Positions 5,745-33,500 of a DNA stretch of 64,000 bases are shown one piece after another; position 1 is the first letter of the stretch; the number at the start of each line of letters is the position of its first letter. Made by a program: the position numbers and the translations under genes. The notes under the pieces are model-generated. The model was not told the origin of the DNA. It did not search any database and worked only from the letters and a program-made list of their open reading frames with translations. Source of the stretch: Eublepharis macularius (Eukaryota > Chordata > Lepidosauria > Squamata > Eublepharidae); NCBI RefSeq assembly GCF_028583425.1, contig NC_072802.1, positions 18,795,926 to 18,859,925 of the forward strand, read 5' to 3'.

Positions 5745-6357
5745 TAGGGGCCATGGCTCTGTGGTAGAGCATCTGCTTGGCATGCAAAAGGTCCCAGGTT
5801 CAATCCCTGGCATATCCACTTTAAAAAGATGCAGGTGATGTAGGAGACCTGAGACCCTGGAGAGCCACTGCTGGTCAGAATAGACCAGACCAGGGCTGGA
5901 TCTAGGGTTGCTGGTGCCCAGGGCAACCCTAGTCCAACCGTTTGCGCACATGCGCAGTGCGCTGCGTGATGACGTCATTTCAATGATGTCATCACACAGG
6001 GTGGAGCGGCAGAGGCAGCGTGCAGGGCTGGGAAGCCCCCCGCGCCATTTGCCTCCCCGCAGGTGAGTGGTGCAGGCGGCCTCGCAGCCCCCCGTGCTGC
6101 CTTTTGCCTGCCCTGCAGGACAGGGGGTGCGCGGCAAGCTGGCCGCCCCCTGACCTGCGGGGCAGGCGAAAGGCAACGCGGGAGGCTGTGAGGCTGCCCG
6201 CGCACTCCCGGCAGCTGGCAGTAGCTCCCGGCGCCCCCTCGCTGGCGGCGCCAGGAACAGACTACCCCCCTGTCCCCCCTCGATCCAGCCCTGGACCAGA
6301 CTGACTGACCTTGGCAGACTGAAAGTCTGACTCAGTAGAAGGCCACTTCATGTGTAT
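5745..6357 (+). repeat. tRNA-derived SINE interrupted by a hAT-type MITE
   Basis: The head 'ggggccatggctctgtggta' holds an A-box-like block. It is followed by 'ggttcaatccctgg' (B box) and the body 'gagagccactgctggtcaga'. The tail resumes after 6294 with 'tgaccttggcagactgaaag' and 'tctgactcagtagaaggcc'. The middle is displaced by the 5891-6293 insertion. Diverged relatives lie at 15610-15735, 33955-34120, 40475-40890 and, in minus orientation, at 44516-44697. Confidence 0.8.
5891..6293. mobile_element. GC-rich hAT-type MITE nested in a SINE
   Basis: The ends are inverted (CAGGGCTGGATC ... GATCCAGCCCTG). The element is flanked by a perfect 8-bp duplication, GACCAGAC, at 5883-5890 and 6294-6301. 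An 8-bp TSD with CAGGG termini is the hAT signature. The 403-bp interior is very GC-rich, with a short inverted motif around 'gatgacgtcatttcaatgat', and codes for no transposase. A related GC-rich segment is found at 17661-18020. Confidence 0.85.
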
Positions 6358-14429: not shown

Positions 14430-17400
14430 GTGAGACCAAGCCTCCATTTTCTGCCTTTTAGTACAAATTACTGGGGAAACTCTTCTATGTGAATCTTTAT
14501 TGATATCCATAGGGGAATGCCCTCTGTGTTGGAGATCTTGCAAGCAGGAAGGCACGACCCTACATATGTGGTGGGAATGCCACTATGTTCAGGAATTTTG
14601 GAGAGTGGTTCACAAAGAGATATTCAACATGATGGGTCTTTCATTGCCATACTCCCCAGAATTTTTCCTATTGGATTTTTGGCCCAACTCTGTGTTAGAT
14701 AGGAATACCAGATCTCTTGTCTCAATATTAGTCGCCTCTGCTCCTCTGGTCATTGCTGGGAATTGGAAATCCCTCAAAGGCCCATTGCTAAAAAAATGGT
14801 ATCAGAAAATCTGGGAGCAATATTTGATGGTTAGGATTATGCATAATCCGTTTTTTGGGAACTTGCATATGGCTGTCCCTTTATTTGAATACGATGAAAT
14901 ATGGAAACCAATTTTAGATGTTTTAAATGCCCAAGAAGTAATTCCCCCAATGCAACAAAGTTTAAATGCTTGTTTATTGTAATTCTTGGGTTTTTAACAA
15001 TTTGCCAAGAGTGGTTTTGATAATGTCTTTTATGGCTTAGTTTTAATCCCTTTCTTGTTTGTACTGTATGGTTTTATCATTTCTTGTATGAAATAATTTT
15101 TAATTTTTTTTTTAAAAAAGATATCCATAGGGGAATGCCATCCTATACACTGGCCCCAGTGAGGTATATCCAACCATCCTCCAATGAGCTTTTCTCCAAT
15201 GGAAAAGCCACTTAAATTTCAGGAAGGCTTGAAAATTGCTCAGTTGAGAGATAAGGCAGGAGTTGGATCCATCCCCAGTGTCCCCAAGGGATTGGGCCCT
15301 TTGAAGATAAAGTTACCCATTTATGATAAATTTATGCTACAAACTTAAAATTAAATATATTTGTTTGGCTTGTATTTAAAACTATTTGTGCAAACATCTG
15401 AGATAAGCCACTTTAAAATATGTGTCTTTTAATCGCTTAAAGCATTCCAGGGCAATTTAAGAGACCTTGCTGATTAGAACTTATTTTGATGCTTGGGGCC
15501 AAGACATTTTTTAAAAGGCCTGAGATCAGCATTGGAAAGCTTCTCGAGGGTGAGAGTTCCAAAGATCCAGAGGCTCTAAGCTCTGTTTTGCCTTGAGAAA
15601 GGTCCCCAACTCAGTCTCTGGCAGCTCCAGTTTAAGGGGTCTCTGGGTCAGACCTTTCTTTCCTGAGACCCTACATAGGCGCTGCTCCGTGATGGTCGAA
15701 TGCCCTTATGTGGTATAAGGCAGCTTCCTACATGTGTGTGTTATGTGTCATCAAGTTGCCTCCGACCTATGGCGTCCCTATGAATGAAAGACCTCCAAAA
15801 CATCCTATCATTAACAGACTTGCTCAGATCCTGCAAACTGGAGGATGTGGCTTCTTCTAGTGAGTCAAGCCATCTTGTTTTAGGTCTTCCCCTTTTCCTA
15901 CTGCCTTTCACTTTTCCTAGAATTATTTTCTAGCTTCATACATGTACACTATATAAACAGGGGCTCTTTACTGGTGTCCAAAGCAGAGACTTTCTGACTA
16001 AAGTAATGACCTAGAGGAAGGGTTAAATTCAGGGTGGCCAGAATATTCCACGTTGGGCCCGTAGAATGAGCATCAAAAATCCTTCCTAACCCCACCCACT
16101 TTTTCAGTGAAATCTGTAATAGAGCCCCTTAGTTCTGATCTACCTGCAAAGCATCCTGTCACATTTGTTCACCTTTGCTCTTGTTCTCCTCCTGGCTGCC
16201 AAAATGTAGAAAGTAAGCCTCTCCGGGCAGAGACCTCTTTGTGTATGCTATTCCATTGAGTATTGCTTACATTGAGGACATGAGAAATGAGCACGTGTCC
16301 AGCAGCACCTATAAGACTAATAAAATTTGTGGAAGAAGCGAGTTTGAAGAAGTGAACTGTGATTAACAAAAGTGCATACCCTACCACAAGTTTTGTTAGT
16401 CTTATAGGTGCTACTGGACTCTTGCTCTTTTCTACTGCTCCCGGCAGACTAACACAGCTACTCATCTTGATTTATTGAAGACATTGTAGATAATATAAAG
16501 CAGCTACCCATTTCAGAATATTGAGAATAGAGACGGGCACCTTTATTGTGGAGCTTTTACACTGTGGGTTTCCTTGCATCAGGTCTGCTGTGGGTAAAGG
16601 TTTTGCAATTTAAACGGAAACCCATATTCCACATTGTTTTTTAATTTATTATTATTATTATTATTATTCATAAAATTAAAAGCCCAATAAAAAGGGCAGA
16701 AAGCAAAAATAAAGAAAAGGATAGTAAAAAGCTTACAAGAAGAAGAAGGAAAAACAGAACTTAGAAATAAAAGAAACCAGTAATACATATTTCATTTCCA
16801 TTCTTCTCAACAACACTTTTCTTTTTTGACAAACATCGTACTTAAAATTTAATCTCTCCAAAATTTCTTTTCCACTACTGCCTCCCTTCTATTTGTTTTC
16901 TCCCAGATTTATCGTCTTAAAAATCAAAGCCACAAATCATCAAATCATTTTTCCTTGTTTCACGCAGAAAGTCAATAAGGGGTTTCCAGTAAACCATAAA
17001 AATAGACAATGTTTTATCTCTGATCAGAGCTGTAAGTTTAGCCATCTCCGCTAGCTCCATCATTTTCATAATCCAATCTTCAACTGGAGGCAATTCTGTG
17101 CTTTTCCATTTTTGTGCATATAAAAGCCTAGCTGCTGTAGTCATATACAAAAATAAAACCCCATGCTGATTTTTCAACTGTTTGTCCATTAATCCCAACA
17201 AAAAGGCTTCTGGCTTAAACTGTACAGTAGTCTTTTGTATTATCATATGGATTTGAATCCAGAATTTTCTAGCCTTACGGCAAGTCCACCTGAAATGATA
17301 GAATGTCCTTCTTGTTTCTCACATTTCCAACATTTATTCGACATACCTTCACTCATTTTAGCTAATTTGTCAGGGGACATATACCAAACAACCAACAATA

Positions 17401-20400
17401 GCACAGGGACCAATAAATCAGTAAAACAACAGTAAATACCAAAAATGAAAAATAATATAATTCTGAATTGTGAGACAGTGAAATGTAGCTTTAAGCGTAA
17501 ATACAAAGAACCGTCTCAGTGGAATAAGTACAGAGACCAGTCTTAGTCCATTTCAAAAGACCAAGCCTCCCAAGACCAGAATCATGGCGCTGAAAATAGT
17601 CAGTCAAACCATCTGTTCATTCTCAAGTCTTTTCAAAGTTCAGACGTCCGTGTAGTCCAGCTGAGCAGAGGGCTGGGAGCCCACCTGCGCCATTCGCCTG
17701 CTCCGAGGGCAGGGGGCGTGTAGCAAGCATGCCGCCCTGTCAGCGTGATGCCCACATGGCAAGCCGGCTGCCCCGGCACACTGTGGAGCTGGTAGCAGCA
17801 GCACAGGTGGCTGGAAGGCCGCCCGCGCCATTTGCCTGCCGTGCAGGACAGGGGGCATGCAGCAAGCTGGCCGCCCCCTCAGCGGGGCAGGTGAATGGGA
17901 CAGGCGGCCTCCCAGCCACCCACGCTGCCGCCGCTAGCTCTGAGGTGCGCCAGGACAGCTGGCTTGCCACGCGGGCAGCACACTCCACACTGCGTGATAT
18001 CACGAAAGTGACGTCATCACGCAGTGTAGTAGTGGACAGTGTGGAAAGGATAGAGGATCCTGTGTAGAGGGTCCAGGCAGATGTATCCCAGGACCAATGC
18101 CACCAAAGTCCCTCTAGAAGTAAAGACAGACCCCACCAGACAGACCAGTGGGTGGGGTCTGTCGTCTTTACTAACCTTGCTGCGCTAAGAACAAACTGCG
18201 CTTGAGAATTGCTTTGCCGTTTCTGTTGGTAAGTGTATAAAGACACTTTTTTGTGTGGATTTGTGTGTGTGTAAATTTTCACACATTAAGAGGGACAAAA
18301 TCTGCTATGTTATATTCTTTACTTCTAGAGGGACTTTGGTGGCATTGGTCGTGGCCCCTGATGAAATCGTGGCTAGATGAAACAAGCTAAATAAATTAAT
18401 CTTGCTGGCTGCTTGTTGGGCCAACCCGGGACCGGCCTGGCTCCTGGGATACGTCTGCCTGGATCCTTTACACACAAGACCTAATTTAGAGGATCACTGT
18501 CCACCTTTTTGTTTCCACATTGTCTACTACTACACTGCTGATGGCTTCTGGACTACACAGATGTCTGAACTTTGAAAAGACTTGAGAATGAACGGATGGT
18601 TTGACTGACTTTATTTTCAGCGCTGTGATTCTGGTCTTGGGAGGCTTGGCCTTTTGAAATTGACTAAGACTGGTCTCTGTATTTATTCCACTGAGACGGT
18701 TCTTTGTATTTATGCTTAAAGCTACATTTCACTGTCTCACAATTCAGAATTATATTATTTTTCATTTTTGGTATTCACTGTTGTTTTACTGATTTATTGG
18801 TCCCTGGGCTGTTGTTTGTTGTAGTTCTGCCTTCACGGTTGCCCTTGGTGTGTTTGCATTGCAGGGGACATATACCGGCAATACATCATTTTATAAAAAT
18901 GTCTTTAAGTCTAACACTCAAAGTAAATTTAAGCCCCTTTATCCACATATTTTCCCACTGATCCATCATTATATTATACCCAAAATTGCTAGTCCATTTT
19001 ACCATACAATCTTTCACAGATTCTTCTTCTGTTTCAAATTTCAGTAACAGCTTATACATTTTAGAAATAACATGTTATTTCTATATTCCACGCTGTGATA
19101 TTTTCTCCCACCTTAAGAAATTCCAGCATTCCTCTTCCACTCCCCCCATATTCCTTTTTTTTTTTTTTTTTACAAAATATTCTCTTGCAGTTTTGTAAAA
19201 AAAGACTGCTTTGACACGAGTCTTGAAACAGTGGGTCTGTGAAATACCTTACCCTTAATAGCTGCTAGCTTCACCTCATTTCTCAACAGGAGCTGTGCGG
19301 TGCGCATTCTGTTGTGTGCAATCTTTGTCTTACAGACACCCCCTCCCTTTTTAAGGGCTGGCTAACTGCATCATTGGCAAAGGCCGTGCTGTTTGGAAAT
19401 TGGTTGGAAAAGGGGGAAGGGTTTTTTTAAGACACCTTTCTTAATTACATTTGCAAAAAGAAATCGGCTTCCGCCAGTTACATTAGGAGTCCATGTTCAT
19501 ATACAGGGTCTGGATTAAGGGTGGAAAATATATATGGGGATATCACTTTAAAATGTATGCAGGATATTCATTGGCAGCAGGGTATGTGCACTGCATGGTA
19601 TCTCCTTGTCCTGCTTTCCCCTCCAGTGTATCATTAGATGTTAAGTGCACCAGCTGTCACTTAAGTTTCTTTCTTTCTCTTATCTCTTTCTCTTCTTCCT
19701 TTCTTTGCACCACAATACATTGTAGTTGAATTCATAGTGTACAGTCCTGCAGTTTGGAAGTGGGCATCCTGCAGTGTCTGAATGCACATTCTCTTCCGCA
19801 CTTGGCTTTATTATTCAGTAAGCTTACTTTTTGTCTTTTACGGAGAGAGAACTTTGGTATTTATATATTCGCATTTCAAAAAAGAATTAAATTTAAAACA
19901 AAGCTAGGCAGAAATCAGAAGACATTACTCTTGCACCTGCAAGTATATGGTCTTAAGCTTTCCCTGTGACAGCTTCTAAATAAATACAGGAATACTACTG
20001 GTTATTATACAAAAGCCTTGGCAGCCGAGTGGGACTTACACTGCTTTCCGAAGGCCAGTATTGAGGTGTGCCTGAACTTCTTGAGGAAGAGGAACTCCAC
20101 AACCTTGGGGGGCCTTCACCAAAAAGGCCTTTCTCTGCACTGTGGATGTACATTTTAGGAAACCCGGAGCAAAGCACTCAGGAATGATAAGCAGGTGGAT
20201 TCATGGGGGAAACAGACACAAGCTGAAGGCCAAACTAGACAATACCCTAAAAAGTGGGGGGAAGCTTTGCTTTTATTATTAGGGGAGGAAGGGCCGTGAT
20301 CTTTTTCCAATACAAAAAGCGAGCCCACGGCTCAGGAGTGCAGAGTGTCTGCTTTCCATGAGAATGGTCCTCCCCAGCATCCTAGCCCATAGGATACAAG

Positions 20401-30508: not shown

Positions 30509-33500
30509 CTAAAACATGTAAACAGCATATTATATGGAACCAGCCCTTTGCTCCTACCCGAGGCGCCCCTCCCCTGGTTTTGTTTTCTTAATGGAGCTGA
30601 AATTGAAACTTGGGCTATGTCAACACAGTGAGGATTCTCCAGTTTGCACTTATTACTAGCTCCATTGTGAATGCAGAGATTGCGCACTGGCAATGCAGCT
30701 TCTGCATATTTTCCTTAATTGGCTGCTGTTTCCCCTGCATGACCCGAGGTTTTTTGAGGGTTTTTTGGGGGAGTGAGGGGAATCAGTAATTGTTACTATT
30801 GCAATTCATTTAGCCTTCAAAAAAAGCTGTCCAGTGGTATGGCAGGAAAAATGGCAGCAGTGAGGAGCTGCCTGAAATAAAATGGCCCTGAGGCTAGTAG
30901 GACTTTGGAAAATGTGTACCTTTCTATAGGATATCCCCTTTAGTACCATAACTATATGTTGTTCATATTCTTAAGCTATCAGGCATTGGTGTGGCTTTCA
31001 GTTCAACTGGGTTTTGCTTTCCTTGTGAAATCTCACCTGCTGTGAGTAGGCCTAAATGAAAGTATCTCCCAAACAGTGAGATATGGGTGTATCTTGGACT
31101 GCATGAAGCAGGGGGTTTCCATCCAAGCAGAAGTATCACTGAACATAGTCCCAAAGCATTATCAGAGCACAGACAGGGGTGGGTGATATGATGGAATGGC
31201 GAAATACTGAGGGGGTGACTCAATTACATCCCAGTTGCTCAGAACCTTCTAGAATCTTCTGGAAGTTCCCAATGGCCTGCCCTAACAAGGAGGCCTCTTC
31301 TGTGACTGGATATCATTTTAACATGACATTGTCAAGAGGGCAGGGTGCATTTCAGAAATGTATTAAAGCTAGATCACGTGCAGGAGGGAAGCTCTCTATT
31401 ATGGGTTCCCCCTGCCCCGTTTCTGCTTGTCTTTTTTGTTCTTTTCTGCTCCCTGCTGAGAGGATAAAAGAGTGGCATCAAAATGTCCTAGTCTACTGAT
31501 TACTGCTCTAGGTATACCCCCTTGCTTTGTTGATTTTTGGAAATGAGTAAGATCAGTGGGGTTTTTTTCATTAAAGAAAGAGGGGGGAGGGGTGCCAGCC
31601 CAGTACTCATGATGTCCACCACATTGGGGGCCCAAGCTCACCAGCCGAAAGAGGTGCTGGTACTGTGTATTGATGCTTACTGCCAGAAAAGAAACCCCTG
31701 AGTAAGATTATTGAGCATTAATTTTTCAGTTATTCAGGGAGAGCTTTGGAATACTGAAAATCTGGTGGGTGTTGTGGCCAAAGTGCCTTCTACCAGCTGC
31801 ATTTAGTTCTCCAAATCTCTCCTTTTTTACAGTCTGCCAACTTGGCCACGCTAATCTATGCTTCTGTAAACTGCCTTGAGATGCAAAGGGAAAGGCAACA
31901 TATAAATGTTTTAATTAATGAGAGAGAATAATATTTTTAAAATAGAATCTTTCTGATAACAAAAGAGCGTCAGTGACACTGTAGTTGTTCTATTGGGTTT
32001 GATGCCAGAATTCTTCATTTCTGCCTGACATGAGATCTTTTATATTATTTTGTGGATCTCTGTAACGTCGAAGGTAACAGGGAATAAAAGTTTGTGTCTG
32101 ACTTCTTGTTTGAAGTTTTGTCATTGTAAGCCACCCTGAACCATGTGGAAAGGCAGGATATAAATGTTTTAATTTAAAAAAATGCTCACTCAATGCAAGG
32201 AGAAAAAACATTCAGGAGCTTGTCCAACTTGTGGGCTTGGGATGAGCACCCTGCAATTACTACTGTTAACTTCTGCTTCACCAGGGACAATTCACTTCAT
32301 CCAGTGCTGTCAACTCGGAACCCCATTAAAGACCTGCCTCATGACTTATCCTAACTTGGCTGCACCCAGCTTTGAAAAACGGTTGAAGCTTTGGAAAGAG
32401 CCCTTGGAGCTGCACTTTCCCAAGCTGACTACACAGGAAACTTACTTCTCATTGCCTTCTTTAGCCACAAAATCCTTCCATGGGAACAAAGCCTAGTAAC
32501 TATCAAGAAGCTTGTCAATAACTGGGGACATTAATTTGTCCAAACTGCATCCATATCTGAGGGAGAGTGTTATCCCCTAATCAATCTCACTGGCTTAGTC
32601 AGATTCCATTGCCCATAAATATTTGGGAGGTCTGGAACTTTTCTTTGTCCCCACTTTGGAACATCTGGAGACTCCAAGACCAGTGGGCCAGGGGTTAAGT
32701 ACTCCTCCACTATCTTGGCACTGCAAGAAACTCTGTACATGCACTGAAGAACCCGCTACAATCTAGATAAAGTGTACTTAGCTGAGTTAAAAGAGCAAGA
32801 TTCAGGTTCAGTAGCACCTGGAGCTTGCTCTTCTATTTCAGACCAACATGGCTACCCATCTTACATTAGCTGAAACAGACCACCTTTATTGCTTTTATTG
32901 ACTATGCGTGTGTGTGAGTGTGCCCTTTCCTTGTTTTGTATTTTGTCCCCTTTCTTACGCCTTTTGAATCCAACCACCATTTTCCCCATTTTTCTCTAAT
33001 AAACCATATTTTTATAAATACTTTTTTGTTTCAGTAATACAATAGATTTCTCCGGGATATTTCATTGAATCTCTTCTCTGCGCACAGATTGCATAGGTGC
33101 TACATAGATGCTAAAAGACTGGATATTTTCCAGGAGTCCATCCTGTGCTTCAGTATTGTTCTAATACTGTGCTGGAGAACTATGTAAGCACCTTGGGTCC
33201 CCACTGGGGAGACAGGCGGAATGCAAATAAATACATACGTAAATCTTGAATTAACTAACTGTAGCCCATATGCTACATTAGCAGTGATACCTAGCTGGTT
33301 AATACGAACGGATGTGGCCAAAGTTGAGGTGGCACGTATGGACCTTTGCCCTAACCTGATATGGCAGTATTGAGGTCCAGGCAGATTTCTCTGTTACTAG
33401 ATTTTAGCTTTAAAAAAAAATTCTTACCCCGCAGTACTGGTCTCCGTTAAAGATCTGAGGTGGGATTGCATTAGGGTTGCCAGCTTTGTCCCTCATTTCT

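Follow-up and report, generated by a model that had tools for sequence, protein, structure and literature searches.

A probable variant hammerhead ribozyme in the terminal repeats of Penelope-like retrotransposons of the gecko Eublepharis macularius

Does a short block in one arm of a gecko repeat element encode a hammerhead ribozyme and, if so, of what build? The block lies at 18352-18423 of a 64,000-nucleotide stretch of Eublepharis macularius DNA (contig NC_072802.1, positions 18,795,926 to 18,859,925; hereafter the window), within a pseudo-long terminal repeat (pLTR) of a Penelope-like element (PLE). A preliminary description, made from the letters of the window, had read it as a type I hammerhead, and our analysis supports this reading with high confidence: the pLTR of a Penelope-like retrotransposon here carries a variant form of the type I hammerhead ribozyme. 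The observations behind this conclusion are the sequence itself, a conserved fold, covariation in three helices and in the core pair 3-8, and a position downstream of the endonuclease in many PLEs. The CTGATGA core, the GAAA, the six-pair stems I and III and the T at 18417 are exactly where they had been placed, the topology is indeed type I (open at stem I), and stem II is as weak as described, having only about 3 bp, ATC/GAT, after the unpaired A18365. The parts of the block are as follows, A3 and A6 being two alignments introduced below.

18352 to 18357, plus strand: 5' strand of stem I, TGGCCC, pairing with 18418-18423; covaries
18418 to 18423, plus strand: 3' strand of stem I, GGGCCA, pairing with 18352-18357; covaries
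18346-18350 with 18430-18434, plus strand: outer extension of stem I, present in the window copy
18358 to 18364, plus strand: core C3 U4 G5 A6 N7 G8 A9, CTGATGA
18365, plus strand: extra unpaired A after A9; A in 49 of 49 distinct rows and in 95 of 101 rows of the A6 alignment
18366 to 18378, plus strand: stem II, ATC/GAT (18366-18368 with 18376-18378), with a 7-nt loop; this register pairs and covaries across PLEs
18379 to 18382, plus strand: core GAAA (G12 A13 A14 A15.1)
18382 to 18416, plus strand: stem III, ACAAGC/GCTTGT (18382-18387 with 18411-18416), with a 23-nt loop; 97.5% of cells paired in the A3 and 92.9% in the A6 alignment
18404 to 18409, plus strand: conserved hexamer of loop III, GCTGGC (GCYRGC)
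18417 to 18418, plus strand: H17 (T at 18417) and predicted cleavage site 18417/18418; position 17 is never G in 102 rows

The outer extension of stem I, also part of the preliminary description, is thus present in the window copy, but it is poorly kept in the family: in 22 family copies, 75.5% of its cells pair, and of its five pairs one is missing from 10 copies and another from 11. A protein-coding role of the block was set aside, because the ATG within CTGATGA opens a frame of only 9 codons plus stop (18361-18390). A coincidental match is a more general concern for any motif picked out of a large scan. The bare core is in fact common, with 10 matches in the window vs 6.15 expected, and core plus stems I and III at five or more of six pairs is still expected 0.13 times per window (40 matches in 39.2 million random strand-bases). 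At six of six pairs, however, the same random sequence yielded 0 matches and the window exactly one site, 18358, and the motif recurs at the same place in many divergent PLEs. We therefore regard a chance origin, refuted by the recurrence in endonuclease-anchored loci and by the covariation in A3 and A6, as wildly improbable.

The carrier was characterized by searching the genome (2.24 Gb, 72 contigs) with 18330-18560, which gave at least 42 matches (40 of the 80 first-look candidates were scored), including two short pieces in antisense. The 30 best matches were taken as family loci, with an overlap between L132 and L140. A stretch at C1:247.21-247.84 Mb holds 11 of these 30 copies, on both strands. 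In L140, the repeat comes after a frame, P0001, with a GIY-YIG signature (Pfam GIY-YIG, E 0.013, 16.2 bits; cut-off 22.6). Slightly downstream of P0001, and in a different frame, L140 contains LLRREAKWIHSLGSMQPKGLN, which we take to be the end of a PLE endonuclease, and a closely similar end occurs in L152, there in the same frame as the GIY-YIG part. Searching the genome with P0001 gave at least 150 matches (150 scored of 18,891 first-look candidates). Together with an element anatomy that includes a 15-nt target-site duplication, these data bear out the Penelope-like carrier proposed in the preliminary description.

The endonuclease matches provided an anchored sample of PLEs. Taken by rank, 24 loci and 80 regions (104 in all) were analyzed over the 1 kb downstream of the match, and 40 further loci extended the sample to 144 of the 150 matches, the last 6 being left out. 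The exact motif CTGANGA-N(3-22)-GAAAC occurred in sense orientation in 53 of 104 loci and in antisense in 1 of 104; with stems I and III at five or more of six pairs, the exact core was found in 45 of 104 loci in sense and in one in antisense. A looser core with stems was present in sense in 67 of 144 loci (L160 probably by chance), and in antisense in none. The model R1 matched, at E ≤ 0.01, 29 of 54 loci in one set and 29 of the 40 added loci; its total of 108 of 144 includes 50 loci by construction, namely 45 that built the model and 5 equal to those in core, stems and loops, these 5 not having been searched with R1 themselves. All R1 matches lay on the endonuclease strand, except for L164, where the match falls within an inverted pLTR. 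R1 also matched 30 of 30 family loci, in part by selection because these loci had been found by similarity to 18330-18560. Among phage hammerhead controls, R1 recovered the core site of only 2 of 20 loci (22.2 and 17.9 bits), and the PLE and phage kinds therefore differ. A weak second R1 match in the window, at 31688-31776 (11.7 bits, E 0.83), was taken as chance.

Covariation was assessed in the two alignments. A3 was reduced from 54 rows to 49 distinct ones and then to 46, window included; L205, L206 and L211 were excluded because their stem III is cut or deleted. A6 comprises 103 matches in 100 loci, fitted to the model, with the window excluded and 8 near-duplicates removed by eye, and includes four rows of E 0.4-1.3, namely L283, L249 and the second matches from L197 and L202. 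RNAalifold returned a three-way junction for A3, with 4 pairs in stem I, one unpaired A, 3 pairs in stem II and 6 in stem III. Within this hammerhead fold, 91.4% of the A3 cells were paired and 47 were changed on both sides, vs 13.8 in shuffled alignments, and the corresponding values for A6 were 89.3% and 179 vs 52.6, cells in these counts being sequences and not evolutionary events. Covariation reached 0.280 in A3 (shuffled 0.168 ± 0.012, slid at most 0.099) and 0.369 in A6 (shuffled 0.170 ± 0.008, slid at most 0.083). Counted by pairs, 7 pairs of A3 showed a both-side change vs 5.0 when shuffled, a number reached by 36 of 500 shuffles. The preliminary description had proposed other genomic copies of the repeat as a check, and the core motif and compensating stem changes do recur downstream of the GIY-YIG endonuclease in many divergent PLEs.

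The residues of the core behave in a similarly ordered manner. In the A6 alignment, residues G5 and A6 are invariant (103/103), U4 is kept in 92 of 101 rows, and N7 is G in 56, T in 35, A in 10 and C in 1. H17 is A in 54, T in 34, C in 14 and G in 0 of 102 rows, and the pair A15.1-U16.1 is A-U in 98 of 102. Of the 100 loci of this alignment, 42 had been chosen by their exact core; H17, the helices and the extra A were unselected. Two groups of PLEs depart from the common pattern. In one (L186, L196, L216, L221, L277, L287), core position 4 is occupied by G or A, or the core is shifted, stem II is GTC/GAC and helix III differs; in the other (L236, L243, L254, L264, L268, L271, L278), which carries CTGATGCAGTCTGGAAAC or a close form, helix II is almost gone.

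Several results weigh against a hammerhead. The window block is not predicted to fold better than its shuffles (z -0.42), stems I and III appear together in the best predicted fold for only 14 of 46 sequences, and covariation is not significant when the 22 closest copies are taken by themselves. The Rfam search proposed in the preliminary description brought no support, as neither the window nor any of 17 related loci matched a hammerhead model at E ≤ 10. R1 in turn missed 18 of the 20 phage control loci. The extra A after A9 is, to our knowledge, not part of the hammerhead consensus, and since 42 of 100 loci were chosen for the exact core, only in the remaining loci does the constancy of G5 and A6 carry information. 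Regarding Rfam, 3 of 3 phage controls matched its hammerhead models in the same search as the 17 loci, at 24-28 bits and thus below the gathering score, and a genome search with RF00163 was uninformative, giving no matches while the controls were silent too. We take the missing match as a limit of the library for a hammerhead variant; a match to its models is a trait set by the library and does not define the molecule.

In a rival reading, what is conserved in the block is a long hairpin, which might for instance be bound by the element's protein, and the resemblance to a hammerhead is incidental. This hairpin pairs 18357-18364 with 18413-18420, 18369-18376 with 18405-18412 and 18383-18386 with 18401-18404. 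For the window block, structure prediction ranks it first, slightly ahead of the forced hammerhead in stability (-23.7 vs -22.3 kcal/mol), a further point on the negative side, and in the 22 closest copies the two structures pair equally, at 92.7% each. The 46 divergent blocks of A3 separate what the close copies leave indistinguishable: the long hairpin pairs in 65.4% of cells with a covariation of 0.053, inside its slid range of 0.038-0.062, as opposed to 91.4% and 0.280 for the hammerhead. Moreover, it leaves the never-G H17 and the swap of pair 3-8 unexplained. The hairpin is thus rejected on the divergent PLE blocks, and we consider it very unlikely.

If the hammerhead fold is adopted, stems I, II and III would close a three-way junction in which CUGANGA and GAAA are set around the phosphate after H17, and the RNA would self-cleave at 18417/18418. 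We consider it most likely that RNA from tandem elements cuts itself at each pLTR, which would set free RNA of unit length. For the window copy itself, we put the odds of self-cleavage activity at about even. Alternatively, the block may have inherited a hammerhead fold that the source elements kept, while this copy, or else the variant as a whole, has become catalytically dead or too slow to matter; we hold this to be a serious possibility, if somewhat short of an even one. It would agree with the short stem II, the extra A beside the core, the loss of the outer stem I in many copies and the weak folding, as well as with the available account of PAc from Anolis, in which dead ribozymes still insert normally in vitro (PMC11167929). 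On the other hand, the window copy has an intact core, and the core, H17 and the 3-8 pair obey activity rules across many PLEs, an argument that the source elements were under selection for cutting.

How does this variant compare with hammerheads already described? We searched the literature for gecko hammerhead retrotransposons and found no paper. Minimal type I hammerheads of PLEs were reportedly described by Cervera and De la Pena in 2014 and by Lunse, Weinberg and Breaker in 2017. Hammerheads in Penelope-like pLTRs are known, as the preliminary description had stated: the available parts of two reviews (PMC6155905, PMC7761336) portray them as minimal, lacking helix III, perhaps cutting as dimers and of unknown role, which one of them calls a mystery (PMC7761336). 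The gecko blocks share with these widespread and partly dimeric ribozymes the type I topology and the location in pLTRs. Whereas the minimal forms are described without helix III, the gecko variant has a helix III of six firm pairs, with 97.5% (A3) and 92.9% (A6) of cells paired and hence neither absent nor diminished, a reduced helix II and an extra A after A9. Going by what is available of the published descriptions, the gecko PLE hammerhead likely differs in build from the minimal form. The Poseidon element PAc of Anolis carolinensis likewise represents a hammerhead in a lizard PLE; in comparison with its available description (PMC11167929), the gecko block has a helix III, and its core ATG opens only the 9-codon frame. 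Variant-core hammerheads resemble the gecko blocks in a weak stem II, with two pairs or just a single one, and in natural 3-8 covariation, with no mention of G3-C8 or of an insertion after A9 in the accessible part of that report (Perreault 2011, PMC3088659). Metazoan retrozymes, in the accessible parts of PMC7229834 and PMC7761336, also bring type I hammerheads into animal retroelements, but they are short, non-coding and move via small RNA circles, whereas the elements of the gecko carrier encode a GIY-YIG endonuclease.

Within a hammerhead core, C3 and G8 pair with each other. In the A6 alignment, this pair is C-G in 85 rows, G-C in 10, G-U in 1 (L274), U-G in 1 (a weak row), unpaired in 5 and a gap in 1. 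The G-C rows (L223, L249, L252, L253, L261, L276, L279, L283, L290 and L292) have the core GUGANCA, and L280 is one further such locus outside the alignment. Since the G3-C8 loci share related letters in stems I and III, they probably form one PLE branch, and the swap is perhaps a single event. We know G3-C8 from mutants only. In PAc, both C3 and G8 are important, and cutting is partly retained in the C3G/G8C double mutant, according to the available text (PMC11167929), and a natural 3-8 covariation, U3-A8, is reported in the accessible part of PMC3088659. For a natural G3-C8 we found no published report in a search covering few subscription papers, and a search for hammerhead C3G with G8C yielded only PMC11167929.

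Loop III holds a hexamer whose conservation almost equals that of the catalytic core and which is often self-complementary. Among 97 A6 rows with letters there (columns 63-68), it reads GCCGGC in 26, GCTGGC in 26, GCCAGC in 12, ACCGGT in 4 and TCCGGA in 3, and its outer letters change together, being G-C in 74, U-A in 6 and A-U in 5 of 96. When tested as a palindrome, the hexamer scored 0.226 vs 0.204 at slide +1 and 0.262 at slide -3 (one pair counted), so that the signal is only suggestive; a dimer contact through self-complementary loops III is possible, and loop III may in this way aid dimer formation. Taking these traits together, we propose, as a tentative view that falls just short of an even call, that the genome holds a large undescribed class of PLE hammerheads whose economy is the reverse of that of the known class, with a firm helix III, a vestigial helix II, an extra A next to the active site, a loop III hexamer possibly joining two ribozymes, and a G3-C8 branch. 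Divergent and covarying PLE hammerheads that Rfam does not see, gathered in one genome, provide a ready test set for asking what sustains cutting with helix II almost gone, whether G3-C8 is functional in nature and whether loops III form dimers.

The window copy of the carrier extends over 17386-18861 and is flanked by two copies of CAGGGGACATATACC. It is short and 5'-truncated, has inverted pLTRs and lacks the coding part. Its features are the following.

17371 to 17385, no strand: left copy of the target-site duplication, CAGGGGACATATACC, 15 nt
17386 to 18126, minus strand: left inverted pLTR arm, without ribozyme block and with a GC-rich insert
18159 to 18228, plus strand: exon 1 (end of the 3' untranslated region and start of the pLTR), directly joined to 18329 in 12 of 30 copies
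18229 to 18328, plus strand: intron of 100 nt, GTAAGT...CTAG, retained in the window copy
18329 to 18861, plus strand: exon 2, the remainder of the right pLTR
18823 to 18861, plus strand: one-sided tail at the end of exon 2, 39 nt, absent from the left arm
18862 to 18876, no strand: right copy of the target-site duplication, 15 nt, identical to CAGGGGACATATACC

Inverted pLTRs, a one-sided tail and a target-site duplication constitute the same layout as that of Penelope elements, for which the available part of PMC3846280 gives inverted pLTRs, an optional tail and a target-site duplication. The two arms are 94.5% identical across 275 nt. As the preliminary description had noted, the opposite arm is devoid of the block: the left arm passes from GGTC straight into CTGGGATAC, and at that point the right arm carries 93 extra bases (18351-18443). 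These 93 nt correspond nearly exactly to the ribozyme block, which L132/L140 retain in both inverted arms. The block is also the least variable part of exon 2 in 20 family copies, a sample in which 1 of the 11 copies of the C1 cluster was kept. In 30-nt windows, the mean minor-letter fraction was 1.8-5.7% at exon 2 positions 31-105 and 6.5-24.4% elsewhere, the similarity search with 18330-18560 biasing the sample toward that whole stretch and not toward the block inside it.

The intron lies just upstream of the ribozyme, its acceptor being 29 nt before the core. A full GTTG|GTAAGT...CTAG| with about 100 nt between was found in 5 of 30 copies, window included (L121, L125, L135, L140, L145), and in 12 of 30 (L122 and 11 others) the intron is exactly removed and the exons are joined directly; 11 of 30 retain the acceptor without this donor, and 2 are unclassed. 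Because Penelope elements are known to keep introns (available part of PMC3846280), the intron-bearing copies are not new in kind. The predicted cleavage site lies 89 nt downstream of the spliceosomal acceptor, and splicing and self-cleavage would therefore both trim the 5' part of the transcript. Genomic copies run through the cleavage site into exon 1, so that uncut RNA is copied too, which accords with the in vitro insertion reported for PAc in the available text of PMC11167929. An intron that is kept or absent by copy directly upstream of the ribozyme lets the order of splicing, self-cleavage and reverse transcription be asked.

The GC-rich insert of the left arm (17670-18020) resembles 5962-6186, a place in the window roughly 150 nt beyond an Rfam tRNA match (5749-5818), and is perhaps a short interspersed nuclear element. 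The frames neighbouring the element resemble what we take to be the ends of open reading frame 2 of squamate L1 elements.
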